A stretch of 64,000 nucleotides of DNA, taken from NCBI RefSeq assembly GCF_907163105.1, contig NZ_OU015321.1, forward strand, positions 868,001 through 932,000, given 5' to 3'. Both the position numbers and the translations under genes were made by a program. This document shows positions 4,353 through 57,840 of the stretch, piece after piece (the stretch's first letter is position 1; each line of letters opens with the position of its first letter). This stretch comes from Cloacibacterium caeni (lineage in GTDB: Bacteria; Bacteroidota; Bacteroidia; Flavobacteriales; Weeksellaceae). The notes beneath the pieces are model-generated. The model made no database searches. It was not told where the DNA came from and was given only the letters and a program-made list of their open reading frames with translations.

Positions 4353-4432
4353 TTGATTTTGGCGTGCCTTTTTTCCACCGCTATTGCCATGCAAAAAAGT
4401 CGCGCTTTCCGTTTCAATCTTTTATTTTTCCA

Positions 4433-4466
4433 GTCTTCGACTCTTCGACTCCGCTCAGACTGACAT
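4433..4466. repeat. Interspersed TTCGACTCC..GCTCAG repeat half
   Basis: TTCGACTCCGCTCAG followed by ACTGACA (about 4444-4465), with a preceding TTCGACTC, is one arm of a palindromic repeat type widespread in Bacteroidota genomes. A diverged full palindrome of the same type lies inside the neighbouring E2 gene at 4810-4895. Confidence 0.6.
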
Positions 4467-4484
4467 AATAAAAGGATTTCCACT

Positions 4485-4543
4485 GCAATCGCTCACGCGA
4501 AAGAAAGAATAAAATCTGCTCAATCAGCAAAATCAGCGAGAGA
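4485..4543. repeat. Interspersed repeat ending in CAGCGAGAG
   Basis: The 16-mer GCAAAATCAGCGAGAG (4528-4543) is identical to 35064-35079, also in a non-coding gap next to a gene start. The sequence before it (CGCTCACGCG, AATCTGCTCAATCAG) resembles the other copy loosely. Confidence 0.55.
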
Positions 4544-29746: not shown

Positions 29747-30898
29747 TTAATCAAGAAGTTTTCCTACCAGGAAATGATTTCCAGAAAGAGATTTTACCGC
29801 GATAAGATATTGGTTTCCGCCGTCTTTTATTTTGTATTTTTTCTTGATTTCTTCTGGTTTTAAAGGAAAATTTTTGGTGATGATATTAAATTGTTCACCC
29901 TTTTTAATCGCTTTTGAATTGATTTCTTCTGTCTCAAAAATTCTTCCTGGGAAGTGTTCTATTTTTTCTTCGGAAGTATAAATGTGTGTGTTCTGATGTA
30001 ATTTTTTCAAACCAAATTTCTCTGAAACTAAATTGAATGCTCCAGATTTTAATACGGAATTATTTGGAATGTAAATGTATTTTTTAGGAAATGAAAGTTC
30101 TGATTGACAGTGTTTTTCATCATCTAAATTAAAGTGAAATTCAGGTTCTGAAGATTGTAAATTGATGCAAGAAATATCTGGTTGATTTTCTGTTTTTTTG
30201 AGATAAACCAAAACTTCTTTTACGTCATTTTTAACCGCAATAATCCAGATTTTATAAATATTTTTGAGCGAAGAAACCAAATGCTGAATATCAATCAGCG
30301 GTGATAGTTTTATTAAAATTTCAGTTGAAATGTCACTTAATTGCTCTTGAATTTCAATAATATTAGGCGACAAATCCTCCAAAAGAAATACTTTTCTGTT
30401 ATGGTTATCTCTTCTTGCAGGATCTAGATAAATTAAATCGAATTTTTCTTTATTGTTTGTGAGAAAATCTTCTAATTTTTGGTTGAGGAAATTCGCTTTT
30501 CTTCCGAGGACTTCCCAATTGTGTTTTACAATGTCCAAAAGCTCTGTATTCTGTTCTATCAAAGTAATTTCTTCAAAATTTTGAGAAATAAAATAAGCGT
30601 CAATTCCAAAACCACAAGTTAAATCCACGAATTTTTTACCTTTAAAAAACTGTTTTTTAAAGTCTGCGGTGTCTTGTGATGAAGCCTGTTCTAGATTAAG
30701 ATTGGGTGGAAAAATAATGTTTTCTTGATTCAAAAAAGGGAACTTTTTCTCTGCTACTTTTCTGCCTTTGATTTGCTGAACCAATTCCTGTATAGAAACC
30801 TCTGGAAATGGAGATTTTTTCAATAACAAAGAATGCAAATCCGCATCTTTATGTTTTGCCACGAATACACGAATTTTATTTAATTTTTTTTGATTCAA
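29747..30898 (-). CDS. Class I SAM-dependent methyltransferase with THUMP-like domain
   Basis: A 383-residue protein. The SAM-binding motif I is KFVDLTCGFGIDAYF (about 89-103), followed by ITLIEQNTEL, and the catalytic-loop-like LIYLDPARRD is near residue 165. The last 80 residues match the THUMP-like domain found on this Bacteroidota methyltransferase family. An RNA or nucleobase substrate is likely by analogy with other THUMP enzymes but is not shown by the sequence. It follows a GxxExxY cassette that separates it from mutA; the four upstream genes are on the same strand. Confidence 0.78.
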   Translation of the reverse strand: MNQKKLNKIRVFVAKHKDADLHSLLLKKSPFPEVSIQELVQQIKGRKVAEKKFPFLNQENIIFPPNLNLEQASSQDTADFKKQFFKGKKFVDLTCGFGIDAYFISQNFEEITLIEQNTELLDIVKHNWEVLGRKANFLNQKLEDFLTNNKEKFDLIYLDPARRDNHNRKVFLLEDLSPNIIEIQEQLSDISTEILIKLSPLIDIQHLVSSLKNIYKIWIIAVKNDVKEVLVYLKKTENQPDISCINLQSSEPEFHFNLDDEKHCQSELSFPKKYIYIPNNSVLKSGAFNLVSEKFGLKKLHQNTHIYTSEEKIEHFPGRIFETEEINSKAIKKGEQFNIITKNFPLKPEEIKKKYKIKDGGNQYLIAVKSLSGNHFLVGKLLD

Positions 30899-30912: not shown

Positions 30913-31413
30913 GCTACAAATGCGCAAATTATATTTAATTTATTTGATTTTTATAATAAATTTTGACTAAAGAACTATTCTTTTATAATTAAGTTTTGGT
31001 TCGCCAAAATTTACCAAAAGAGCCAAATTATTTCCAGATACTTTTAAATAATTAATGCATTGTGCAATATCTTCATTAGCTATTTTATTTTTCCCTTTAA
31101 CTTCAAGTATAATTTTATCAAATATGACAAAATCTGCATAAAATTTATGAGAAAGGATAATGCCTTTGTAGTTTACTGTATATTCTTTTTCTCTAGAGTA
31201 TTCAATTTTCGCATTCTTGAATTCTAATTCCAAAGCATCTTTATATACAATTTCTGAAAAACCTGCTCCCAAATTATTGTGAACTTCCATACAAATTCCA
31301 ATAATTTGATATGATTCTTCCTTATGAATGATACCCATATTTTAGTTTTTCAATTTGTGAATTAGTGGAATTTAAAACAAAATTATTTTAAAAAAATATT
31401 CGTGCATTAGTGG
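30913..31413. mobile_element. Inverted-repeat cassette carrying a GxxExxY gene (type B)
   Basis: Imperfect inverted ends GCTACAAATGCGCAAATTA (30913-30931) and CGTGCATTAGTGGC-type sequence (31395-31413) match at 13 of 19 positions. A second related word (TGTGAATTAGTGGA) lies at about 31356-31369. The cassette begins 3 bases after the mutA stop and ends 14 bases before the methyltransferase start, so it fills the gap between two codirectional genes. Confidence 0.6.
30967..31338 (-). CDS. GxxExxY protein (PD-(D/E)XK nuclease-like)
   Basis: A 123-residue protein with the naming motif GFSEIVY (residues 26-32). Asp69, Glu79 and Lys81 in ADFVIFDKIILEVKG form a D-Xn-E-x-K pattern, as expected for the PDDEXK_3 nuclease-like superfamily to which these proteins belong. 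Glu29 of the naming motif may be a further active-site residue. Activity has not been established for the family, as far as I know. It lies in the same direction as mutA and the methyltransferase, inside inverted repeats. A diverged relative is at 36200-36577. Confidence 0.85.
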   Translation of the reverse strand: MGIIHKEESYQIIGICMEVHNNLGAGFSEIVYKDALELEFKNAKIEYSREKEYTVNYKGIILSHKFYADFVIFDKIILEVKGKNKIANEDIAQCINYLKVSGNNLALLVNFGEPKLNYKRIVL

Positions 31414-35135: not shown

Positions 35136-36110
35136 GTGAACAATAAAACCTTCAAAACCATTCTTATTTTCGTATTTTCATTGGTGGTGATTACGATTCT
35201 CATCAATTTAAATATAGGCTTTATAAAACTAGGTTTAGCAGATTTTGTTGACGCTAATGCTCAGAATTCACAAATTGCAGAACTCAGAATGAATCGTGTT
35301 TTAGCGATGTTTCTAGCAGGCGTTTCTATTCCTACTTCTGGATTTCTTTTGCAAGAATATTTTCAAAATCCATTAGCTGGACCATCGGTTCTTGGGATAA
35401 CTTCAGTGGCGAGTTTAAGCGTAGCTTTTTACATCTTTTTTTCTCAAGATTTTACTTTACCAGAGTTTCTGCAAAATGGTTTCATCAGTATTTCTGCAAT
35501 TTTCGGAAGCCTACTTTTAATGACCATTTTATTGATTTTTTCTAGAAAATTTCAAGATAAATCATATCTGATTATTTTTGGTTTCTTGGTTTCTGCTTTA
35601 GCAGGAGCAGTAGTTTCTATCTTACAATTATATGCAGAAAATCAAAGTCTGAAAAACTATATTTTATGGAGTTTTGGAGCGAATAATCAAGTGACCAGAA
35701 ATCAACTTTGGGTGCTATTCATTGTAGTATTAGTGGGATTGTTTTTAAGTTTCAAAAGCATAAAACCGCTCATCGGGAATAGTCTAGGAAATCAATATGC
35801 TAAAAGTTTTGGCGTAAATTTAGAACAACTGAAATATTTTGTTATCATAGCTTCTTCCCTACTTTCTGCATCTGTTACGGCGTTTTTAGGGCCTATTTTG
35901 TTTATAGGAATTGTAGTTCCTCATTTTAGCAGAATGATTTATTCTCCAGCGAAATTGTGGCAACAATGGATTTTGAATATGATTTTAGGAGTTTTTATAA
36001 TGGAATTTTTTTCTATTATTTCAGAAATTTCGCAATTCCCAATTAATGTAATTACAAGTTTATTTGGAGTACCAGTAATTTTGATGATGATCCTTAAAAA
36101 TAAAAATTAA
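35136..36110 (+). CDS. FecCD-family iron/siderophore ABC transporter permease
   Basis: A 324-residue inner-membrane permease with about nine hydrophobic segments. ELRMNRVLAMFLAGVSIPTSGFLLQEYFQNPLAGPSVLGI is the strongly conserved FecCD start, GPILFIGIVVPHFSRMI is the later signature, and the end is typical. It should import Fe-siderophore, haem or cobalamin together with the ATPase at 36656. The start is GTG at 35136. No binding-protein gene is adjacent. The ATPase gene follows after a 545-base gap filled by a GxxExxY cassette whose left arm begins on the last bases of this gene's stop codon. Confidence 0.9.
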   Translation: MNNKTFKTILIFVFSLVVITILINLNIGFIKLGLADFVDANAQNSQIAELRMNRVLAMFLAGVSIPTSGFLLQEYFQNPLAGPSVLGITSVASLSVAFYIFFSQDFTLPEFLQNGFISISAIFGSLLLMTILLIFSRKFQDKSYLIIFGFLVSALAGAVVSILQLYAENQSLKNYILWSFGANNQVTRNQLWVLFIVVLVGLFLSFKSIKPLIGNSLGNQYAKSFGVNLEQLKYFVIIASSLLSASVTAFLGPILFIGIVVPHFSRMIYSPAKLWQQWILNMILGVFIMEFFSIISEISQFPINVITSLFGVPVILMMILKNKN

Positions 36111-36650
36111 ACGCAAAGGCGCAAAAGGATTTATTAACTTTATGTTTTTAAGACGCAAGTCATCAAAGATGACAATTAAAAAAACTAATAATTAAAAATA
36201 TGATAGAAAATGAGTTATCAAAAGTTGTTTTTGATTTAGGCTTAAAAATTCATAAAAAATTTGGAGCAGGCTTATTTGAAAGTGTATATGAAGAATGTTT
36301 ATTTTATGAACTAAAAAAAGCAGGATTAAAAGTAGAAAAACAAAAAACACTTCCAATAATTTATGAAGAGTTAAGAATTGAAAATGCTTTTAGAATTGAT
36401 ATAATTGTAGAAAACAAATTAATTTTAGAAATTAAAACTGTAGATTTCATTAATGATGTTCATAAGGCTCAACTTTTGACATATTTAAAAATAACAAATT
36501 GTAAATTAGGATTACTAATTAATTTTAGAACAGATATTTTTAAAGATGGAGTAAAAAGAGTTGTTAATGGATTATAAAAAACGAAAATCTTTGATTTTCT
36601 TGCGCCTTAAAAACGTAATAAATTAAAAAATAAAATTGCGCCTTTGCGTT
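36109..36650. mobile_element. Inverted-repeat cassette carrying a GxxExxY gene (type A)
   Basis: Outer arms AACGCAAAGGCGCAA (36109-36123) and its exact complement (36636-36650), plus inner arms GTTTTTAAGACGCAAG (36144-36159) and its complement at 36599-36614 with one mismatch, enclose the gene at 36200-36577. It begins in the permease stop codon and ends 5 bases before the ATPase ATG. An empty copy lies at 57623-57840; a 22-base stretch (36583-36604) is identical to the complement of 57725-57746. Confidence 0.8.
36200..36577 (+). CDS. GxxExxY protein (PD-(D/E)XK nuclease-like)
   Basis: A 125-residue protein with GLFESVY (24-30) as the naming motif and Asp67, Glu77 and Lys79 in RIDIIVENKLILEIKT as a D-Xn-E-x-K pattern, matching the PDDEXK_3 nuclease-like superfamily. 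It is a diverged paralogue of the protein at 30967-31338; only the motif regions match well. It separates the permease and ATPase genes of one transporter and lies in the same direction. Whether it is a nuclease, and whether it moves its own cassette, is unknown. Confidence 0.87.
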   Translation: MIENELSKVVFDLGLKIHKKFGAGLFESVYEECLFYELKKAGLKVEKQKTLPIIYEELRIENAFRIDIIVENKLILEIKTVDFINDVHKAQLLTYLKITNCKLGLLINFRTDIFKDGVKRVVNGL

Positions 36651-36655
36651 AAAAA

Positions 36656-37579
36656 ATGTTTTTAGAAATAAAAAATACAACCATCGGTTACCAAAAACCT
36701 CTTATTTCCGAGGTTAATGCGTCATTGGATTTTGGTGACGTTTGTTTGCTGATTGGTAATAACGGCGTTGGCAAAACTACTTTAATTAAATCTATTCTCA
36801 ATCAAATTTCACTTTTACAAGGCGATATTTTAATCAATAAAAAAAATGTAATAAAACTTACAGATAAAGAAATTGCAGAACAAATAGCAGTGGTTTTTGC
36901 AAAATCTCAAATTCCTGCAAATTACACTACAGAAGATTTAATTTCCCTTGGAAAATTCATTCATTTACCTTTTTATTATCAGTTAGAAAATGAAGATTTA
37001 GAACATGTTAACAGTATTATTTCTCAGTTAAAACTAGAAGAATATAAAAATATTCAGTTGCAGAAACTGTCAGACGGAAATCTTCAAAAAGCCTTTATTG
37101 GAAGAGCTTTAGCACAGAATTCTCCAATGATTATATTAGATGAACCTACTACGCATTTAGACGAAGAAAATAAAATTATCATCTTAAAATTACTTCGAGA
37201 TTTAGCAAAAAAACAAAACAAAATCATTCTTTTTTCTTCTCACGATTGGCGATTGGCTAAAGAATTTGCAGATAAAATTTGGTTTATTAATGACCAAAAT
37301 CTCCAAGAAGGTTTGGCGGAAGACATTCTTTTGAAGAATGATTTATTGACTAATCCTCGACTTTTTACTATCAATGAAGAGTTTGTTTCACCTGAAATTA
37401 TAGCTCCTTTTTTAGAAAAAGAAATGTTATACTCTGCTTTGCAAAAAAACTTTAAAAGAGACCTTTCTGGTTTTAAAATAGAATTTCAGGGTGCATTTTG
37501 GGAGATTTTTTACAAAAATAATAGGTTTTCTTGTCAATCTATTGACGAAATACTGTTATCAATTAGAAATTGCTTATAA
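36656..37579 (+). CDS. ABC transporter ATP-binding protein (FecE/BtuD-like)
   Basis: A 307-residue ATPase: Walker A GNNGVGKTT (34-42), signature LSDGNLQKAFIGRAL, Walker B MIILDEPTTHLD and switch histidine in LFSSHDWRL. The first 230 residues are the nucleotide-binding domain; a further 75 or so residues at the C-terminus are extra. The signature reads LSDGN instead of LSGGE/Q, a known variation in this subgroup. It probably powers the permease encoded at 35136, with the GxxExxY cassette between them. The following 165-base gap holds the marR promoter. Confidence 0.88.
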   Translation: MFLEIKNTTIGYQKPLISEVNASLDFGDVCLLIGNNGVGKTTLIKSILNQISLLQGDILINKKNVIKLTDKEIAEQIAVVFAKSQIPANYTTEDLISLGKFIHLPFYYQLENEDLEHVNSIISQLKLEEYKNIQLQKLSDGNLQKAFIGRALAQNSPMIILDEPTTHLDEENKIIILKLLRDLAKKQNKIILFSSHDWRLAKEFADKIWFINDQNLQEGLAEDILLKNDLLTNPRLFTINEEFVSPEIIAPFLEKEMLYSALQKNFKRDLSGFKIEFQGAFWEIFYKNNRFSCQSIDEILLSIRNCL

Positions 37580-38210: not shown

Positions 38211-40604
38211 ATGAAAAGACGAATTAAACACGTTACAGTTCTTGGTTCAGGAATTATGGGAAGCGGAATTGCTGCGCACTTTGCAAACATTGGCGTAGAA
38301 GTTCTCCTTCTGGATATTGTTCCGTTTGAATTGACGGAAGCTGAACAGAAAAAAGGTCTTACCAAAGAAGACAAAGCAGTACGAAACAGAATTGCTACAG
38401 AAAGTTTGGCTAAATTAGTAAAAGCCAGCCCTGCTCTACTTTATAAAAAGGAGTTTGCAGAAAGAATTTCTGTAGGAAATTTTGATGACGATTTGCAGAA
38501 AATCAAAAATACAGATTGGATTATCGAGGTGGTAGTAGAAAGATTAGACATTAAAAAGTCTGTTTACGAAAAAATCGAACAATTCCGTAAACCTGGAACT
38601 TTGGTTTCTTCTAATACGTCTGGTATTCCTATTAATATGTTGGTAGAAGGAAGAAGCGCAGATTTTAAACATTATTTTGCAGGAACTCATTTCTTTAATC
38701 CTGTTCGTTATTTACCACTTTTAGAAATTATTCCTACCAAAGATACCGATGCTGAAATCGTGAAATTCTACATGGAATATGGCGCTAAATTCTTAGGAAA
38801 AACTACCGTTTTAGCAAAAGATACTCCTGCCTTCATCGCGAACAGAATTGGAGTTTTCTCGATGATGAATTTACTTCACAATGTAAAATCTATTGGTCTT
38901 AATGTAACTGAAGTTGATAAATTAACAGGTCCAGTTATTGGTAGACCTAAATCTGCAACTTTCAGAACAGCAGACGTGGTAGGTTTAGATACTTTGGTTC
39001 ATGTAGCAAACGGAGTTCACGCTTCTGGTGTAGAAGATGAACAATTCAAAGGAACTTTTGTTCTTCCAGATTACATCAATATGATGATGGAAAACAAATG
39101 GTTAGGTTCTAAAACTGAACAAGGTTTCTACAAAAAAGTGAAAAATGCGGATGGAAAATCAGAAATTCACGGTCTTAATTTAGATTCTTATCAATACGAA
39201 AATCAAGGAAAAGCAAATTTTGCTACTCTTGAACTCACTAAAAATATTGATAAACCAATTGATAGATTCAAAGTTTTAATTGGAGGAAAAGACAAAGCAG
39301 GAGAATTATACAGAAAATCTCTGGGAGCTCTTTTCGCTTATGTTTCTCACAAAATTCCTGAAATTTCAGACGAGCTTTACAAAGTAGATGATGCGATGAA
39401 AGCTGGTTTCGGTTGGGAAAATGGTCCTTTCGAAATTTGGGATGCAGTTGGTGTTCAAAAAGGAATTGAATTGGCTACTGAAGCTGGTTTCACGGTTTCT
39501 GATTGGGTAAAATCAGTAGAATCTTTCTACAAAGTAAATGAAGAAGGACAAAGTATTTTCTTCGACAAAAATTCTGGAAATTACAACAACATTCCTGGTC
39601 AAGAAGCTTTCATTATTCTTGATAATATCAGAAAAAATAAAACATTGTGGAGCAATTCTGGTTCTGCAATCCAAGATTTAGGAGATGGCATCATCAACTT
39701 CGAGATTCGTTCTAAAATGAATTCTCTAGGTGGTGAAGTTCTTGATGGATTAAATCGCGCTATTGACTTAGCAGAAAAAGAATATGATGGTTTAGTAATC
39801 GGAAATCAAGGTGCTAATTTCTCTGTCGGGGCTAACTTAGCGATGATTTTGATGATGGCAATCGAGCAAGATTGGGATGATCTGAACATGGCAATTGCTT
39901 ACTTCCAAAAATCGATGATGAGAGTTCGCTACTCTTCTGTTCCTGTGGTGGTTGCTCCTCACGGATTAACTCTAGGTGGTGGTTGCGAAATGACCATGCA
40001 TGCTGATAAAGTAGTTGCTGCTGCAGAAACTTACATCGGTTTAGTAGAAACAGGAGTGGGTGTAATTCCAGGAGGCGGTGGTACTAAAGAATTCGCTTTG
40101 AGAACTTCTAAAGAGTTCGCGGCTGATGACGTTAAAAACAACAGAATGCGTGAAGCTTTCATGAATATCGCAATGGGTAAAGTAGCAACTTCTGCTCACG
40201 AAGCTTATGATATGGGTATTCTTCAAAATCATAAAGACATTGTGGTAGTCAACAAAAACCGACAAATTGCTGAAGCTAAAAAAGTAGCTAAATTAATGGC
40301 AGAACAAGGTTATACTCAACCAATTCAGCAAAAAGTGAAAGTTTTGGGTCAAGGTGCATTAGGTATGTTCTATGTAGGAACTGACCAAATGGTTACTGGA
40401 AATTTCATTTCTGAACACGATAAGAAAATTGCAGATAAATTAGCGTATGTAATGGTAGGTGGTAATCTTTCTGAGCCAACTGTAGTTACAGAACAATATC
40501 TATTGAATCTTGAAAGAGAAGCATTCTTACAATTGTGTGGCGAAAGAAAAACACTAGAAAGAATTCAGTTTATGTTACAAAAAGGTAAACCGCTTCGTAA
40601 CTAG
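38211..40604 (+). CDS. fadN: 3-hydroxyacyl-CoA dehydrogenase / enoyl-CoA hydratase, FadN-like
   Basis: A 797-residue bifunctional beta-oxidation enzyme with domain order dehydrogenase first, hydratase last, as in B. subtilis FadN rather than FadB. The NAD loop GSGIMGSG (12-19), SSNTSGIP and HFFNPVRYLPLLEI mark the dehydrogenase. Residues from about 495 carry the crotonase fold with NQGANFSVGANL (oxyanion loop) and GLTLGGGCEMTMHAD. It hydrates enoyl-CoA and oxidises the 3-hydroxyacyl-CoA for FadA. Its TAG stop is the first three bases of a heptanucleotide array that flanks the four-helix-bundle gene. Confidence 0.93.
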   Translation: MKRRIKHVTVLGSGIMGSGIAAHFANIGVEVLLLDIVPFELTEAEQKKGLTKEDKAVRNRIATESLAKLVKASPALLYKKEFAERISVGNFDDDLQKIKNTDWIIEVVVERLDIKKSVYEKIEQFRKPGTLVSSNTSGIPINMLVEGRSADFKHYFAGTHFFNPVRYLPLLEIIPTKDTDAEIVKFYMEYGAKFLGKTTVLAKDTPAFIANRIGVFSMMNLLHNVKSIGLNVTEVDKLTGPVIGRPKSATFRTADVVGLDTLVHVANGVHASGVEDEQFKGTFVLPDYINMMMENKWLGSKTEQGFYKKVKNADGKSEIHGLNLDSYQYENQGKANFATLELTKNIDKPIDRFKVLIGGKDKAGELYRKSLGALFAYVSHKIPEISDELYKVDDAMKAGFGWENGPFEIWDAVGVQKGIELATEAGFTVSDWVKSVESFYKVNEEGQSIFFDKNSGNYNNIPGQEAFIILDNIRKNKTLWSNSGSAIQDLGDGIINFEIRSKMNSLGGEVLDGLNRAIDLAEKEYDGLVIGNQGANFSVGANLAMILMMAIEQDWDDLNMAIAYFQKSMMRVRYSSVPVVVAPHGLTLGGGCEMTMHADKVVAAAETYIGLVETGVGVIPGGGGTKEFALRTSKEFAADDVKNNRMREAFMNIAMGKVATSAHEAYDMGILQNHKDIVVVNKNRQIAEAKKVAKLMAEQGYTQPIQQKVKVLGQGALGMFYVGTDQMVTGNFISEHDKKIADKLAYVMVGGNLSEPTVVTEQYLLNLEREAFLQLCGERKTLERIQFMLQKGKPLRN

Positions 40605-40634
40605 AGGTTAGAATTTAGATATTAGAATTTAGAT
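40602..40634 (+). repeat. Heptanucleotide array, left flank of the four-helix-bundle gene
   Basis: Five 7-bp units each beginning TAG (such as TAGAATT). The first TAG is the fadN stop codon and the last unit contains the ATG of the next gene. The outer 18 bases are complementary to 41004-41021 at 16 positions. Confidence 0.8.
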
Positions 40635-40995
40635 GAAAGCACATCGTTTACAAGATTTACAAATTTGGAAAAGATCTATGAGTCTAGTTAAAGAAATTTA
40701 TCTCATTACTCAAGATTTACCTTCTGAAGAAAAATTTGGTTTGATAAGTCAAATCAGAAGATGTGCAGTATCTATTCCTTCTAATATCGCTGAAGGAGCT
40801 GGCAGAAATAATGTTAATGAATTTATTCAATTTTTAGGAATTGCTTCAGGTTCTGCATATGAATTAGAGACTCAATTAATTCTATTGTTTGAATTAAATT
40901 TTAAAACAGAAAAAGAAATTTCTGCCCTATTAAACGAACTTTCTGAAATACAGAAGATGATTTATTCTTTTAAAACAAAATTAAAAAACGGTTAG
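40633..40995 (+). CDS. Four-helix-bundle protein (S23/IVP-like, TIGR02436)
   Basis: A 120-residue all-helical protein. LQDLQIWKRSMSLVKEIY, the conserved AVSIPSNIAEGAGR and the helix that follows are the signature of the family first known from proteins encoded in intervening sequences of 23S rRNA genes, and related in fold to the Avd protein of diversity-generating retroelements. No reverse transcriptase is nearby. It is inserted between fadN and fadA in the same direction, with heptanucleotide arrays on both sides that form an inverted pair. Function unknown. Confidence 0.9.
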   Translation: MKAHRLQDLQIWKRSMSLVKEIYLITQDLPSEEKFGLISQIRRCAVSIPSNIAEGAGRNNVNEFIQFLGIASGSAYELETQLILLFELNFKTEKEISALLNELSEIQKMIYSFKTKLKNG

Positions 40996-41003
40996 TTGTT
41001 TTT

Positions 41004-41038
41004 CTAACTTCTAACCTCTAATTTCTAAAATCTAAATT
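41004..41038 (+). repeat. Heptanucleotide array directly before fadA
   Basis: Five uninterrupted 7-bp units beginning CTAA (such as CTAACTT and CTAAATT) end at the base before the fadA ATG. They are the inverted counterpart of the array at 40602-40634. Confidence 0.82.
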
Positions 41039-42217
41039 ATGAAACAAGCATATATAGTAGCAGGTTACAGAACAGCGGTAGGTAAAGCTCCGAAAGGAAG
41101 TTTAAGATTTACCAGACCAGATGTAATGGCTGCAAAAGTGATAGAAAAATTGATGGCAGATTTGCCTCAGTTAGATAAAGATAGAATCGATGATTTAATC
41201 GTTGGTAACGCAATGCCAGAAGCAGAACAAGGCTTAAACGTTGCACGTTTGATTTCTTTAATGGGATTAAATACCGATAAAGTTCCTGGTGTAACTGTAA
41301 ATAGATATTGTGCTTCTGGAAGTGAAGCGATTGCGATTGCTTCTGCTAAAATTCAAGCAGGAATGGCAGATTGTATTATTGCAGGAGGTGCAGAAAGTAT
41401 GTCTTTCATTCCAATGGGAGGTTATAAACCAGTTCCAGAAAGTCATTATGCAAAATCTCACCCAGATTATTATTGGGGAATGGGCTACACTGCGGAAGAA
41501 GTGGCAAAACAATACAATATTTCTAGGGAAGAACAAGACCAATTTGCTTTTGAATCTCATCAAAAAGCTTTGAAAGCTATTGCTGAAGGTAAATTTGCAA
41601 AACAAATCGTTCCAATTCCTGTAGAATATAATTTCTTAGACGAAAACCAAAAAGTTCAAACCAAAAAATTTGATTTCTCAGTAGACGAAGGTCCTAGAGC
41701 AGATACTTCTATCGAAGGTTTGGCAAAATTAAGACCAGTTTTTGCAGCTGGAGGTTCTGTTACCGCAGGAAACTCCTCTCAAATGTCTGATGGTGCTGCT
41801 TTCGTAGTAGTAATGTCAGAAGAAATGGTAAAAGAATTAAACCTTGAGCCAATTGCAAGATTAGTTTCTTATGCAGCTGTTGGCTTAGAGCCAAGAATTA
41901 TGGGGGTTGGTCCAATTTACGCAATTCCAAAAGCGTTAAAACAAGCTGGGCTTTCTCTTCAAGATATTGGTTTAATTGAATTGAACGAAGCCTTTGCTTC
42001 TCAGTCAGTTGCCATTAAAAAAGAATTGGATTTAAACCCTGAAATTTTAAATGTAAATGGTGGAGCAATCGCTCTTGGTCACCCTCTAGGTTGTACAGGA
42101 ACTAAATTGACGGTTCAGCTTCTTGACGAAATGAAATTAAGAGGCGTGAAATACGGAATGGTTTCTATGTGTGTAGGAACAGGACAAGGCGCAGCTTCTG
42201 TAATTGAACTATTGTAA
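41039..42217 (+). CDS. fadA: Acetyl-CoA C-acyltransferase (FadA-type thiolase)
   Basis: A 392-residue thiolase for the last step of beta-oxidation, releasing acetyl-CoA. The nucleophile is in VNRYCASGSEAIAIA, histidine in GHPLGCTGTK and the second cysteine in SMCVGTGQGAA; the CVGTGQG ending is typical of degradative FadA/FadI-type thiolases, unlike the CNGGGG ending of the thiolase at 22.3 kb. It sits between fadN and an acyl-CoA dehydrogenase under the MarR promoter. Translation begins directly after a heptanucleotide array. Confidence 0.94.
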   Translation: MKQAYIVAGYRTAVGKAPKGSLRFTRPDVMAAKVIEKLMADLPQLDKDRIDDLIVGNAMPEAEQGLNVARLISLMGLNTDKVPGVTVNRYCASGSEAIAIASAKIQAGMADCIIAGGAESMSFIPMGGYKPVPESHYAKSHPDYYWGMGYTAEEVAKQYNISREEQDQFAFESHQKALKAIAEGKFAKQIVPIPVEYNFLDENQKVQTKKFDFSVDEGPRADTSIEGLAKLRPVFAAGGSVTAGNSSQMSDGAAFVVVMSEEMVKELNLEPIARLVSYAAVGLEPRIMGVGPIYAIPKALKQAGLSLQDIGLIELNEAFASQSVAIKKELDLNPEILNVNGGAIALGHPLGCTGTKLTVQLLDEMKLRGVKYGMVSMCVGTGQGAASVIELL

Positions 42218-57622: not shown

Positions 57623-57840
57623 TTTTGCGCCTTTGCGTGGAAATACATCTATCATTTGTTTTACAAAAGAATTTTTAACGCAAAGACGCAATATTTATAT
57701 TAAAAAAATAGAAAGAAAATAAGACGCAAGAAAATCAAAGATTTTCAAAACAAATAAAGACGAAGTCTTTTTGCGTCTTAAAAACATAATCAATTCATAG
57801 ATATATTTTGCGCCTTTGCGTTGAAATACATCTATCATTT
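57623..57840. repeat. Empty inverted-repeat element within 35-bp direct repeats
   Basis: Two 35-bp direct repeats (57623-57657 and 57806-57840, one mismatch) frame an inverted-repeat unit: AACGCAAAGACGCAA (57677-57691) against its near complement at 57808-57822, and inner AAGACGCAAG (57721-57730) against 57770-57785. The arms match those of the GxxExxY cassette at 36109-36650, but there is no gene between them. The rest of 57510-57887 shows nothing else. Confidence 0.78.

Follow-up and report, generated by a model that had tools for sequence, protein, structure and literature searches.

A candidate minimal mobile cassette: a PD-(D/E)XK nuclease-like gene within paired inverted repeat units in an ABC transporter operon of Cloacibacterium

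An inverted-repeat cassette that encloses an intact GxxExxY gene is found between the permease and ATPase genes of an ABC transporter operon in Cloacibacterium caeni (genome G000, 2.72 Mb). It occupies positions 36107-36655 of the window, by which is meant the whole 64,000-nucleotide stretch of DNA that was analysed. The same family of repeat arms also forms palindromes that carry no gene, some sister species have the cassette while others lack it, and the gene has an ancestry separate from that of the surrounding operon. The explanation favoured here, with a probability of about 0.45, is that of a minimal, long-lived and laterally exchanged cassette, in which a PD-(D/E)XK nuclease-like gene sits within paired inverted repeat units. 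It is preferred because arm type and protein type are coupled, the active site is kept, the ancestry of the gene is separate and miniature copies exist.

Read from 5′ to 3′, the cassette consists of an outer arm, a spacer, an inner arm and a hairpin, then the GxxExxY gene, then a hairpin, an inner arm, a spacer and an outer arm. These parts, the two operon genes and the related features of the window are as follows.

30967-31338, minus strand: second GxxExxY gene of the window, other arm family (CACGAAT type), arms at 30622-30664 and 31368-31408 (0 of 2000 shuffles)
35136-36110, plus strand: FecCD-type ABC permease, upstream operon gene (PF01032, E 1.2e-57)
36110-36124, plus strand: left outer arm AACGCAAAGGCGCAA, 15-bp perfect inverted match to 36636-36650
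36144-36159, plus strand: left inner arm, 16 bp, one mismatch to 36599-36614
36159-36173, plus strand: left inner hairpin, 6-bp stem, C-G closing pair, loop AAA, as read from the sequence
36200-36577, plus strand: GxxExxY protein, 125 amino acids, PD-(D/E)XK nuclease-like (TIGR04256, PF13366, conserved residues, predicted structure)
36583-36599, plus strand: right inner hairpin, 7-bp stem, C-G closing pair, loop TTT, read likewise
36599-36614, minus strand: right inner arm, inverted match to the left inner arm
36636-36650, minus strand: right outer arm, inverted match to the left outer arm
36656-37579, plus strand: ABC transporter ATPase, downstream operon gene (PF00005, E 3e-24)
40633-40995, plus strand: IVP gene, 23S rRNA intervening-sequence type, four-helix (PF05635, E 4.7e-41)
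57625-57639, minus strand: extra outer-arm copy with one mismatch, beside the gene-less element (arm search)
57677-57822, no strand assigned: palindromic element without a gene, same arm family (inverted-repeat score 29, reached by 7 of 2000 shuffles)

The first-pass annotation had described perfect 15-bp outer arms, 16-bp inner arms with one mismatch, a left arm that starts within the permease stop codon and a right arm that ends just before the ATPase start codon. All of these coordinates check: the first base of the left outer arm is the last base of the stop codon, and 5 bases separate the end of the right outer arm from the ATG at 36656. The inverted repeat at the cassette ends scores 62, a value equalled by 0 of 2000 dinucleotide shuffles (shuffle maximum 37), and it is the top-scoring pair both in the window and among the 35 inverted-repeat pairs found in a 464-kb scan of the same genome. 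That census (35 pairs scoring at least 34 in 464 kb; locally shuffled sequence totalling 284 kb gave 4) includes many pairs that are short hairpins or have one arm in coding sequence. No rRNA match was found in the window at Rfam gathering scores, the cassette lying between the permease and ATPase genes, and the three Rfam matches found at ten loci with E up to 1 were all under their own gathering scores. The sole gathering-level Rfam match of the window, a Flavo-1 RNA at 4394-4514 on the minus strand (58.2 bits), is far from the cassette.

The enclosed gene product matches TIGR04256 (E 3e-41; 140.3 bits against a curated cut-off of 35) and PF13366 (135.9 bits against a cut-off of 22). Residues E27, D67, E77, K79, Q91 and Y95, with the motif E77xK79, are invariant across nine GxxExxY proteins of this genome; the tenth protein, L009, was left out of the comparison because its start is uncertain. 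E27, D67, E77, K79 and Q91 are jointly present at 110 of 119 GxxExxY loci, and the nine exceptions comprise six alignment gaps and three substitutions at D67 or Q91. The resulting D...ExK...QxxxY pattern is presumably the motif of the Cas4/RecB/lambda exonuclease branch. The best AlphaFold model has a pLDDT of 90.8 (the four others range from 74.4 to 65.2), and the top Foldseek matches in the PDB are 4ic1 (SSO0001, a Cas4 protein; E 5e-4) and lambda exonuclease (E 4e-3). These leading matches are partial, with TM-scores to the query of 0.43-0.55, and the Holliday junction resolvase 2eo0 is a lower match at E 0.05. Weak matches were also obtained with PADLOC Cas4 profiles (best E 6e-5) and with a PHROG that bears the label CRISPR/Cas-associated; a search of the PDB by sequence gave just five matches, all of them S100 proteins (E 0.37-0.71). 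Given the conserved residues together with the fold and profile matches, the protein appears to be an active nuclease with a single domain, belonging to the Cas4/RecB/lambda-exonuclease branch; it displays the predicted PD-(D/E)XK core fold and the D and ExK residues of that superfamily. The gene is under purifying selection, with dN/dS of 0.00-0.11 in 14 of 15 chosen pairs, where the 0.00 comes from a near-identical pair and the remaining pair yielded no dS. Profile searches with TIGR and Pfam detected neither a DDE nor another known transposase inside the cassette, the enclosed gene being PF13366.

The arms are found elsewhere in the window and in the genome. Allowing up to 3 mismatches, the outer arm has six matches in the window (five at 0-1 mismatches and one at 3), where the average over 100 shuffles was 1.5 and the maximum 4. 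Genome-wide, AACGCAAAGGCGCAA with up to 2 mismatches occurs 21 times, compared with 5 times for a reversed-pattern control. A copy of the arms lacking a gene had been noticed near 57623-57840; it resolves into the element at 57677-57822 and the arm copy at 57625-57639, and the longest stretch identical to the cassette is indeed 22 bases. A model termed R1, built from six aligned full gene-less elements (five from this genome and one from G004), has matches in 12 of 59 genomes representing the species itself, its genus, family and order, including all seven Cloacibacterium genomes, and the arms thus extend beyond the two loci at which they were originally seen. Seven R1 places are present in G000, with strands merged by eye. 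The six training elements match R1 by construction, and the element at 57677-57822 (E 7.6e-21) is one of these six.

Most of the gene-less elements contain two small hairpins that face each other, and in the window cassette the gene fills the space between. The gene-less elements stand to the cassette as a miniature element does to its gene-carrying form. At the loci that were read, they are extragenic. Outer and inner feet are mostly conserved in sequence among the six gene-less elements. There are no both-side changes in their 13 outer arm pairs, which speaks against outer arms kept solely as an RNA stem, and over the whole predicted structure a both-side change is found in 1 of 32 pairs. 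The small hairpins show the reverse pattern. Directly inside the inner arm, 83 of 104 distinct half-elements, taken from every fetched locus, display a perfect stem of at least 6 bp, compared with 54 of 2080 mononucleotide shuffles; many half-elements are orthologous copies, and 104 is therefore not a count of independent events. The half-element stems have many unrelated sequences and are mostly C-G closed over a three-base loop.

At the permease-ATPase junction, the cassette is present in three of seven Cloacibacterium species, namely G000, G004 and G005, and in G005 it extends along the entire query at 91% identity. Empty sites had been expected in sister species, and junction alignment gives clean, short empty junctions in G001 and G002. 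The junction of G006 is a 28-bp gap with TTTTGCGTTAAAAAAATG at its end, a sequence similar to the terminal part of the right arm; because of this remnant, G006 has probably lost the cassette, rather than representing the state before its gain. G003 has at the same place a different inverted-repeat cassette of about 400 bp with ends TTTCCCGCAGATTTCGCAGATT around another small open reading frame (score 35, 0 of 2000 shuffles). Outside the genus, the junction measures 27 bp in G016, holds another open reading frame in G014 and has a weak palindrome in G017 (18 of 1000 shuffles).

The nearest named records are L125, from a Flavobacteriales MAG (UBA1937; G004), and L126, from Cloacibacterium normanense (G005). 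Compared with G004, the gene has a dS of 0.13 and the flanks 0.95 and 0.82 (Fisher p=4e-11); compared with G005, the values are 0.89 for the gene and 0.25 and 0.33 for the flanks (Fisher p=3e-6). This swap, computed for this one gene and its flanks, means that the GxxExxY gene has a history separate from that of the operon, whichever enzyme was responsible. In 90-base steps, the left arm and the gene are 93-99% identical to G004 and the right arm 88%, and in the flanking genes the identity is 70-92% up to their last 100 bases. As the right arm of G004 is by eye closer to that of G005, the exchanged piece seems to consist of the left arm and the gene. In G004 (L125), about 100 extra bases follow the GxxExxY stop codon; they hold another copy of the left inner arm with its hairpin, which would fit a nesting or fusion of two cassettes.

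The same junction is found in 28 of the best 80 of 368 named loci, the window's own excluded. The best 80 were kept as named relatives, and they are not mutually independent. Two of the 28 are from Cloacibacterium and 26 are from other genera (Chryseobacterium, Epilithonimonas and Kaistella), in contrast to the occupancy of 3 of 7 within Cloacibacterium. Another 32 of the best 80 of 368, mostly from Flavobacterium, join one other site cluster, with one similar flank sufficing; by the same rule the two clusters hold 60 of these 80. The 119 GxxExxY loci represent between 50 (one flank) and 59 (both flanks) distinct sites. In view of the 26 loci from other genera, the insertion is old at this junction and not simply a jumping unit, and the GxxExxY gene is often inherited in place over long times. 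The first-pass annotation had proposed a mobile unit and had set against it an ordinary operon member, conserved at this junction across genera. Among the best 80 of 368 named loci, the 26 go part of the way towards the latter; the differing histories of gene and flanks support the former. In Kaistella montana (L148), at the same junction, the GxxExxY gene appears frame-broken, as its match starts late and out of register.

For 11 further GxxExxY and IVP cassettes of this genome, 65 junctions of relatives were compared. The gene is carried at 22 of these (alignment over more than 60% of the own gene, at 58-100% identity), 16 are empty, with flanks less than 45 bp apart, 25 hold other sequence and 2 could not be closed. 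Every one of the 11 sites has at least one relative with the gene and at least one without. By eye, such junctions appeared to be hotspots for unrelated palindromes; this was rejected, just 7 of 25 stretches being at 4 of 200 shuffles or fewer, and two of those 7 (L034 in G002 and G003) look like a terminator. An unrelated palindrome in place of the cassette is claimed for G003 at the window junction only.

No consistent target-site duplication was seen by eye at four junctions of gene-less elements (L014, L015, L019 and L023) or at sites A, B, C and F; together with the 26 loci of other genera, this speaks against a freely jumping element. The insert at site A (about 260 bp) is longer than the element and shows no duplication, and the empty L014 allele of G002 results from a deletion, in which the start of the neighbouring gene is lost as well. 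At L019, comparison of G000 with G003 gives the direct repeat AATCTAA, which fits either a 4-7 bp duplication or a microhomology deletion. Nested palindromic elements are also seen by eye: at L019/L218 an AACGC element of G000 lies inside a TGTCATTCTGA-type palindrome that is unbroken in G003. At sites B and C, again by eye, the palindromes that different Cloacibacterium species have at one place differ in arm sequence.

The genome of C. caeni holds ten GxxExxY genes at ten places and five IVP genes, IVP being the family encoded by 23S rRNA intervening sequences. Flanking inverted repeats score above 30 at 6 of 10 GxxExxY and 4 of 5 IVP genes, each cassette with its own arm sequence, and the other 4 GxxExxY genes have no clear flanking repeat (scores 19-27). 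The IVP cassette of the window has arms at 40594-40633 and 41003-41043 (1 of 2000 shuffles), and this cassette (40594-41043) lies between two genes that appear to encode fatty-acid oxidation enzymes. In a 250-bp inverted-repeat test, the 99th percentile of 157 neighbour open reading frames was 29.4. Scores above it were obtained for 23 of 39 GxxExxY loci (the best 29 fetched from a phylum sample plus the ten own), 54 of the best 80 of 368 named loci, 15 of 34 IVP loci and, among small GIY-YIG loci, 10 of 24 (30 were fetched, of which 6 were discarded as clipped); some of these 10, e.g. L368, resemble plain hairpins and not repeat families. With swapped upstream and downstream regions as the control, the 99th percentile is exceeded at 20 of 39 GxxExxY loci, 16 of 34 IVP loci and 12 of 80 named loci (best of 368), the last figure being low because the named loci share arm families. 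A GIY-YIG nuclease gene of G000 (L295:8079-8464; genome positions 148079-148464) lies between the arms of a 28-bp inverted repeat, TTGTCAGGCTGAGCGGAGTCGAAGCCTT, which differ at one position, and similar repeats are found around several small GIY-YIG genes of other Bacteroidota.

Many GxxExxY arms appear by eye to be made of 8-10 nt quasi-repeats of the types CGCAAAG, CACAGAG, CACGGAG and CGCAGAT. Arm similarity is correlated with protein identity at 32 sites (Spearman 0.263, a value attained in 1 of 2000 label shuffles); each site is represented by a single locus, drawn from the 77 of 119 loci that have an inverted-repeat score of at least 30. In keeping with the suggestion that operon transcription survives the insertion, such genes are oriented in sense within operons: upstream neighbours are co-directional at 134 of 140 GxxExxY and IVP loci compared with 136 of 192 control open reading frames (13 of 153 loci have no upstream neighbour within 450 bp), and downstream neighbours at 137 of 142 compared with 176 of 192. 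GxxExxY genes with CGCAAAG-type arms are also seen in MAGs labelled Leptospiraceae, Bdellovibrio and Kiritimatiellaeota (L153, L172, L189). Mis-binning is likely for L172, as its flank is common with the Flavobacterium site cluster, and L153 and L189 may represent cross-phylum transfer or mis-binning. Three short Y1 (RAYT-like) transposase genes (L314, L315 and L316) are present in G000 among four matches, and hairpin-like inverted repeats are seen by eye on both sides of each. These genes were considered as movers of the cassettes and rejected, the adjacent repeats looking by eye unlike cassette arms.

In the favoured explanation, each repeat unit would comprise conserved linear feet (AACGCAAAGGCGCAA and TTTAAGRCGCAAG) and a small hairpin. 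The gene-less palindromes would be miniature, non-autonomous relatives of the cassette, comparable to REPINs in relation to RAYTs and to MITEs in relation to transposons. The putative nuclease might recognise its own arm family, or a cruciform or hairpin formed by the arms, and would cut or resect there; recombinational repair would then copy, swap or restore the cassette between genomes. Homing by such a nuclease is plausible. Lying in sense within operons, the cassette would be transcribed and yet cause no polar damage, and this orientation would also be compatible with an RNA-level step as in rRNA intervening sequences. Against the explanation, ordinary homologous recombination could have swapped the gene between species, and an identical layout is seen in the IVP cassettes, whose gene is not a nuclease gene.

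It is possible, if rather doubtful, that mobility or recombination is a property of the arms themselves, which another enzyme would move in trans or homologous recombination would exchange. The genes inside (GxxExxY, IVP, GIY-YIG and other small open reading frames) would then be captured passengers, some of them kept for a host function. Such capture would account for the differing gene kinds with one layout (15 of 34 IVP and 10 of 24 small GIY-YIG loci above the percentile) and for the different open reading frame in the inverted-repeat cassette of G003, and the three RAYT-like genes of G000 are potential movers; the arm type, however, tracks the GxxExxY subfamily across sites, and no likeness to cassette arms is seen by eye in the repeats next to the three Y1 genes. 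The passenger explanation stays alive because of the IVP cassettes without a nuclease, the long stay at one site and the lack of a consistent target duplication.

Two further explanations keep the gene or the transcript at the centre. An ordinary accessory operon gene, with arms that regulate mRNA stability or attenuation and a patchy distribution produced by loss and recombination, would be consistent with the shared gene order at 28 of the best 80 of 368 named loci (two of them Cloacibacterium), with dN/dS of at most 0.11, with co-directional neighbours and with the arm-like remnant in G006 as a sign of loss. It is nevertheless unlikely, given that a single genome has ten GxxExxY genes, each at a different place, that gene-less copies occur elsewhere and that the dS values are swapped. 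Still less probable is an action at the RNA level as in 23S intervening sequences, whereby pairing of the arms in the transcript would form a stem for RNase III to cut, and the cassette would be tolerated owing to its removal from the mRNA. The layout is that of the Coxiella intervening sequence as described in PMC4990558, IVP genes occur in such cassettes here and the orientation is sense. Yet the outer pairs of the six gene-less elements have no both-side change, the cassette is not in rRNA and RNA action alone leaves its spread unexplained. The likeness to rRNA intervening sequences proposed in the first-pass annotation thus holds for the layout and for 4 of 5 own IVP genes with scores above 30, and a stem selected only as RNA is not favoured.

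A broader hypothesis is offered tentatively, as one that may well prove wrong: the GxxExxY, small GIY-YIG and IVP genes of Bacteroidota might together form the core of a single broad class of mobile elements of minimal size. That joint reading, equally tentative, would have palindromic cassettes in operons, with family-specific quasi-repeat arms, structure-conserved hairpins and gene-less miniatures. If true, the class would correspond to RAYT/REPIN but rely on other nucleases, with 23S rRNA intervening sequences as its rRNA-inserted branch. It would give a role to these protein families, could explain part of the short palindromic intergenic DNA in these genomes and would make the spread of rRNA intervening sequences, an old question, testable in harmless laboratory Flavobacteriia. 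In phylum samples, 60 of 118 genomes had a match to PF13366 and 157 of 198 a match to IVP. Yet the top results of searches in open-access literature held no study of the GxxExxY family or its arms and none of IVP or GIY-YIG palindromic cassettes in Bacteroidota; GxxExxY appears in PMC8934634 in a side remark on a CRISPR-like reverse transcriptase.

Comparison with known systems shows partial likeness in several directions. With Cas4, RecB and lambda exonuclease, the GxxExxY protein shares the D...ExK...QxxxY residues, fold matches and weak Cas4 profile matches; it differs in consisting of the core domain alone (125 amino acids), and the fold matches are partial. As with homing endonuclease genes, there are a nuclease-like gene, occupied and empty alleles at one site in sister species (the permease-ATPase junction) and a sign of lateral exchange. 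Unlike those genes, the cassette has no intron or intein, and its arms are found at many unrelated sites. The gene-less copies have the ends of the gene-carrying form, as do MITEs in relation to autonomous transposons, but the cassette is without a transposase and without a consistent target-site duplication at the junctions read.

The intervening sequence of Coxiella 23S rRNA is described in PMC4990558 as having terminal inverted repeats, short direct repeats upstream of an open reading frame, the frame itself in the loop and a sporadic distribution. The cassette resembles intervening sequences with an IVP/S23p frame in its terminal inverted repeats around one small open reading frame, the short direct repeats upstream and the sporadic occurrence; it differs in lying between protein genes of an operon and in carrying GxxExxY instead of IVP. 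REPINs, according to PMC3116915, are two inverted units that occur as short extragenic palindromes, in families each tied to a single-copy enzyme gene. No Y1 (HUH) transposase tied to the cassette was found, the Y1 genes of G000 being elsewhere and beside different-looking repeats. The enclosed enzyme is PD-(D/E)XK nuclease-like (PF13366) and not a Y1/HUH transposase, and the cassette units have long linear feet, with the gene inside the palindrome. Shared with the REPIN/RAYT system are the inverted unit pair, the hairpin borne by each unit, the dispersed palindromes and the distinct families within one genome, and dispersed inverted unit pairs with hairpins are what the arm family of this cassette displays.
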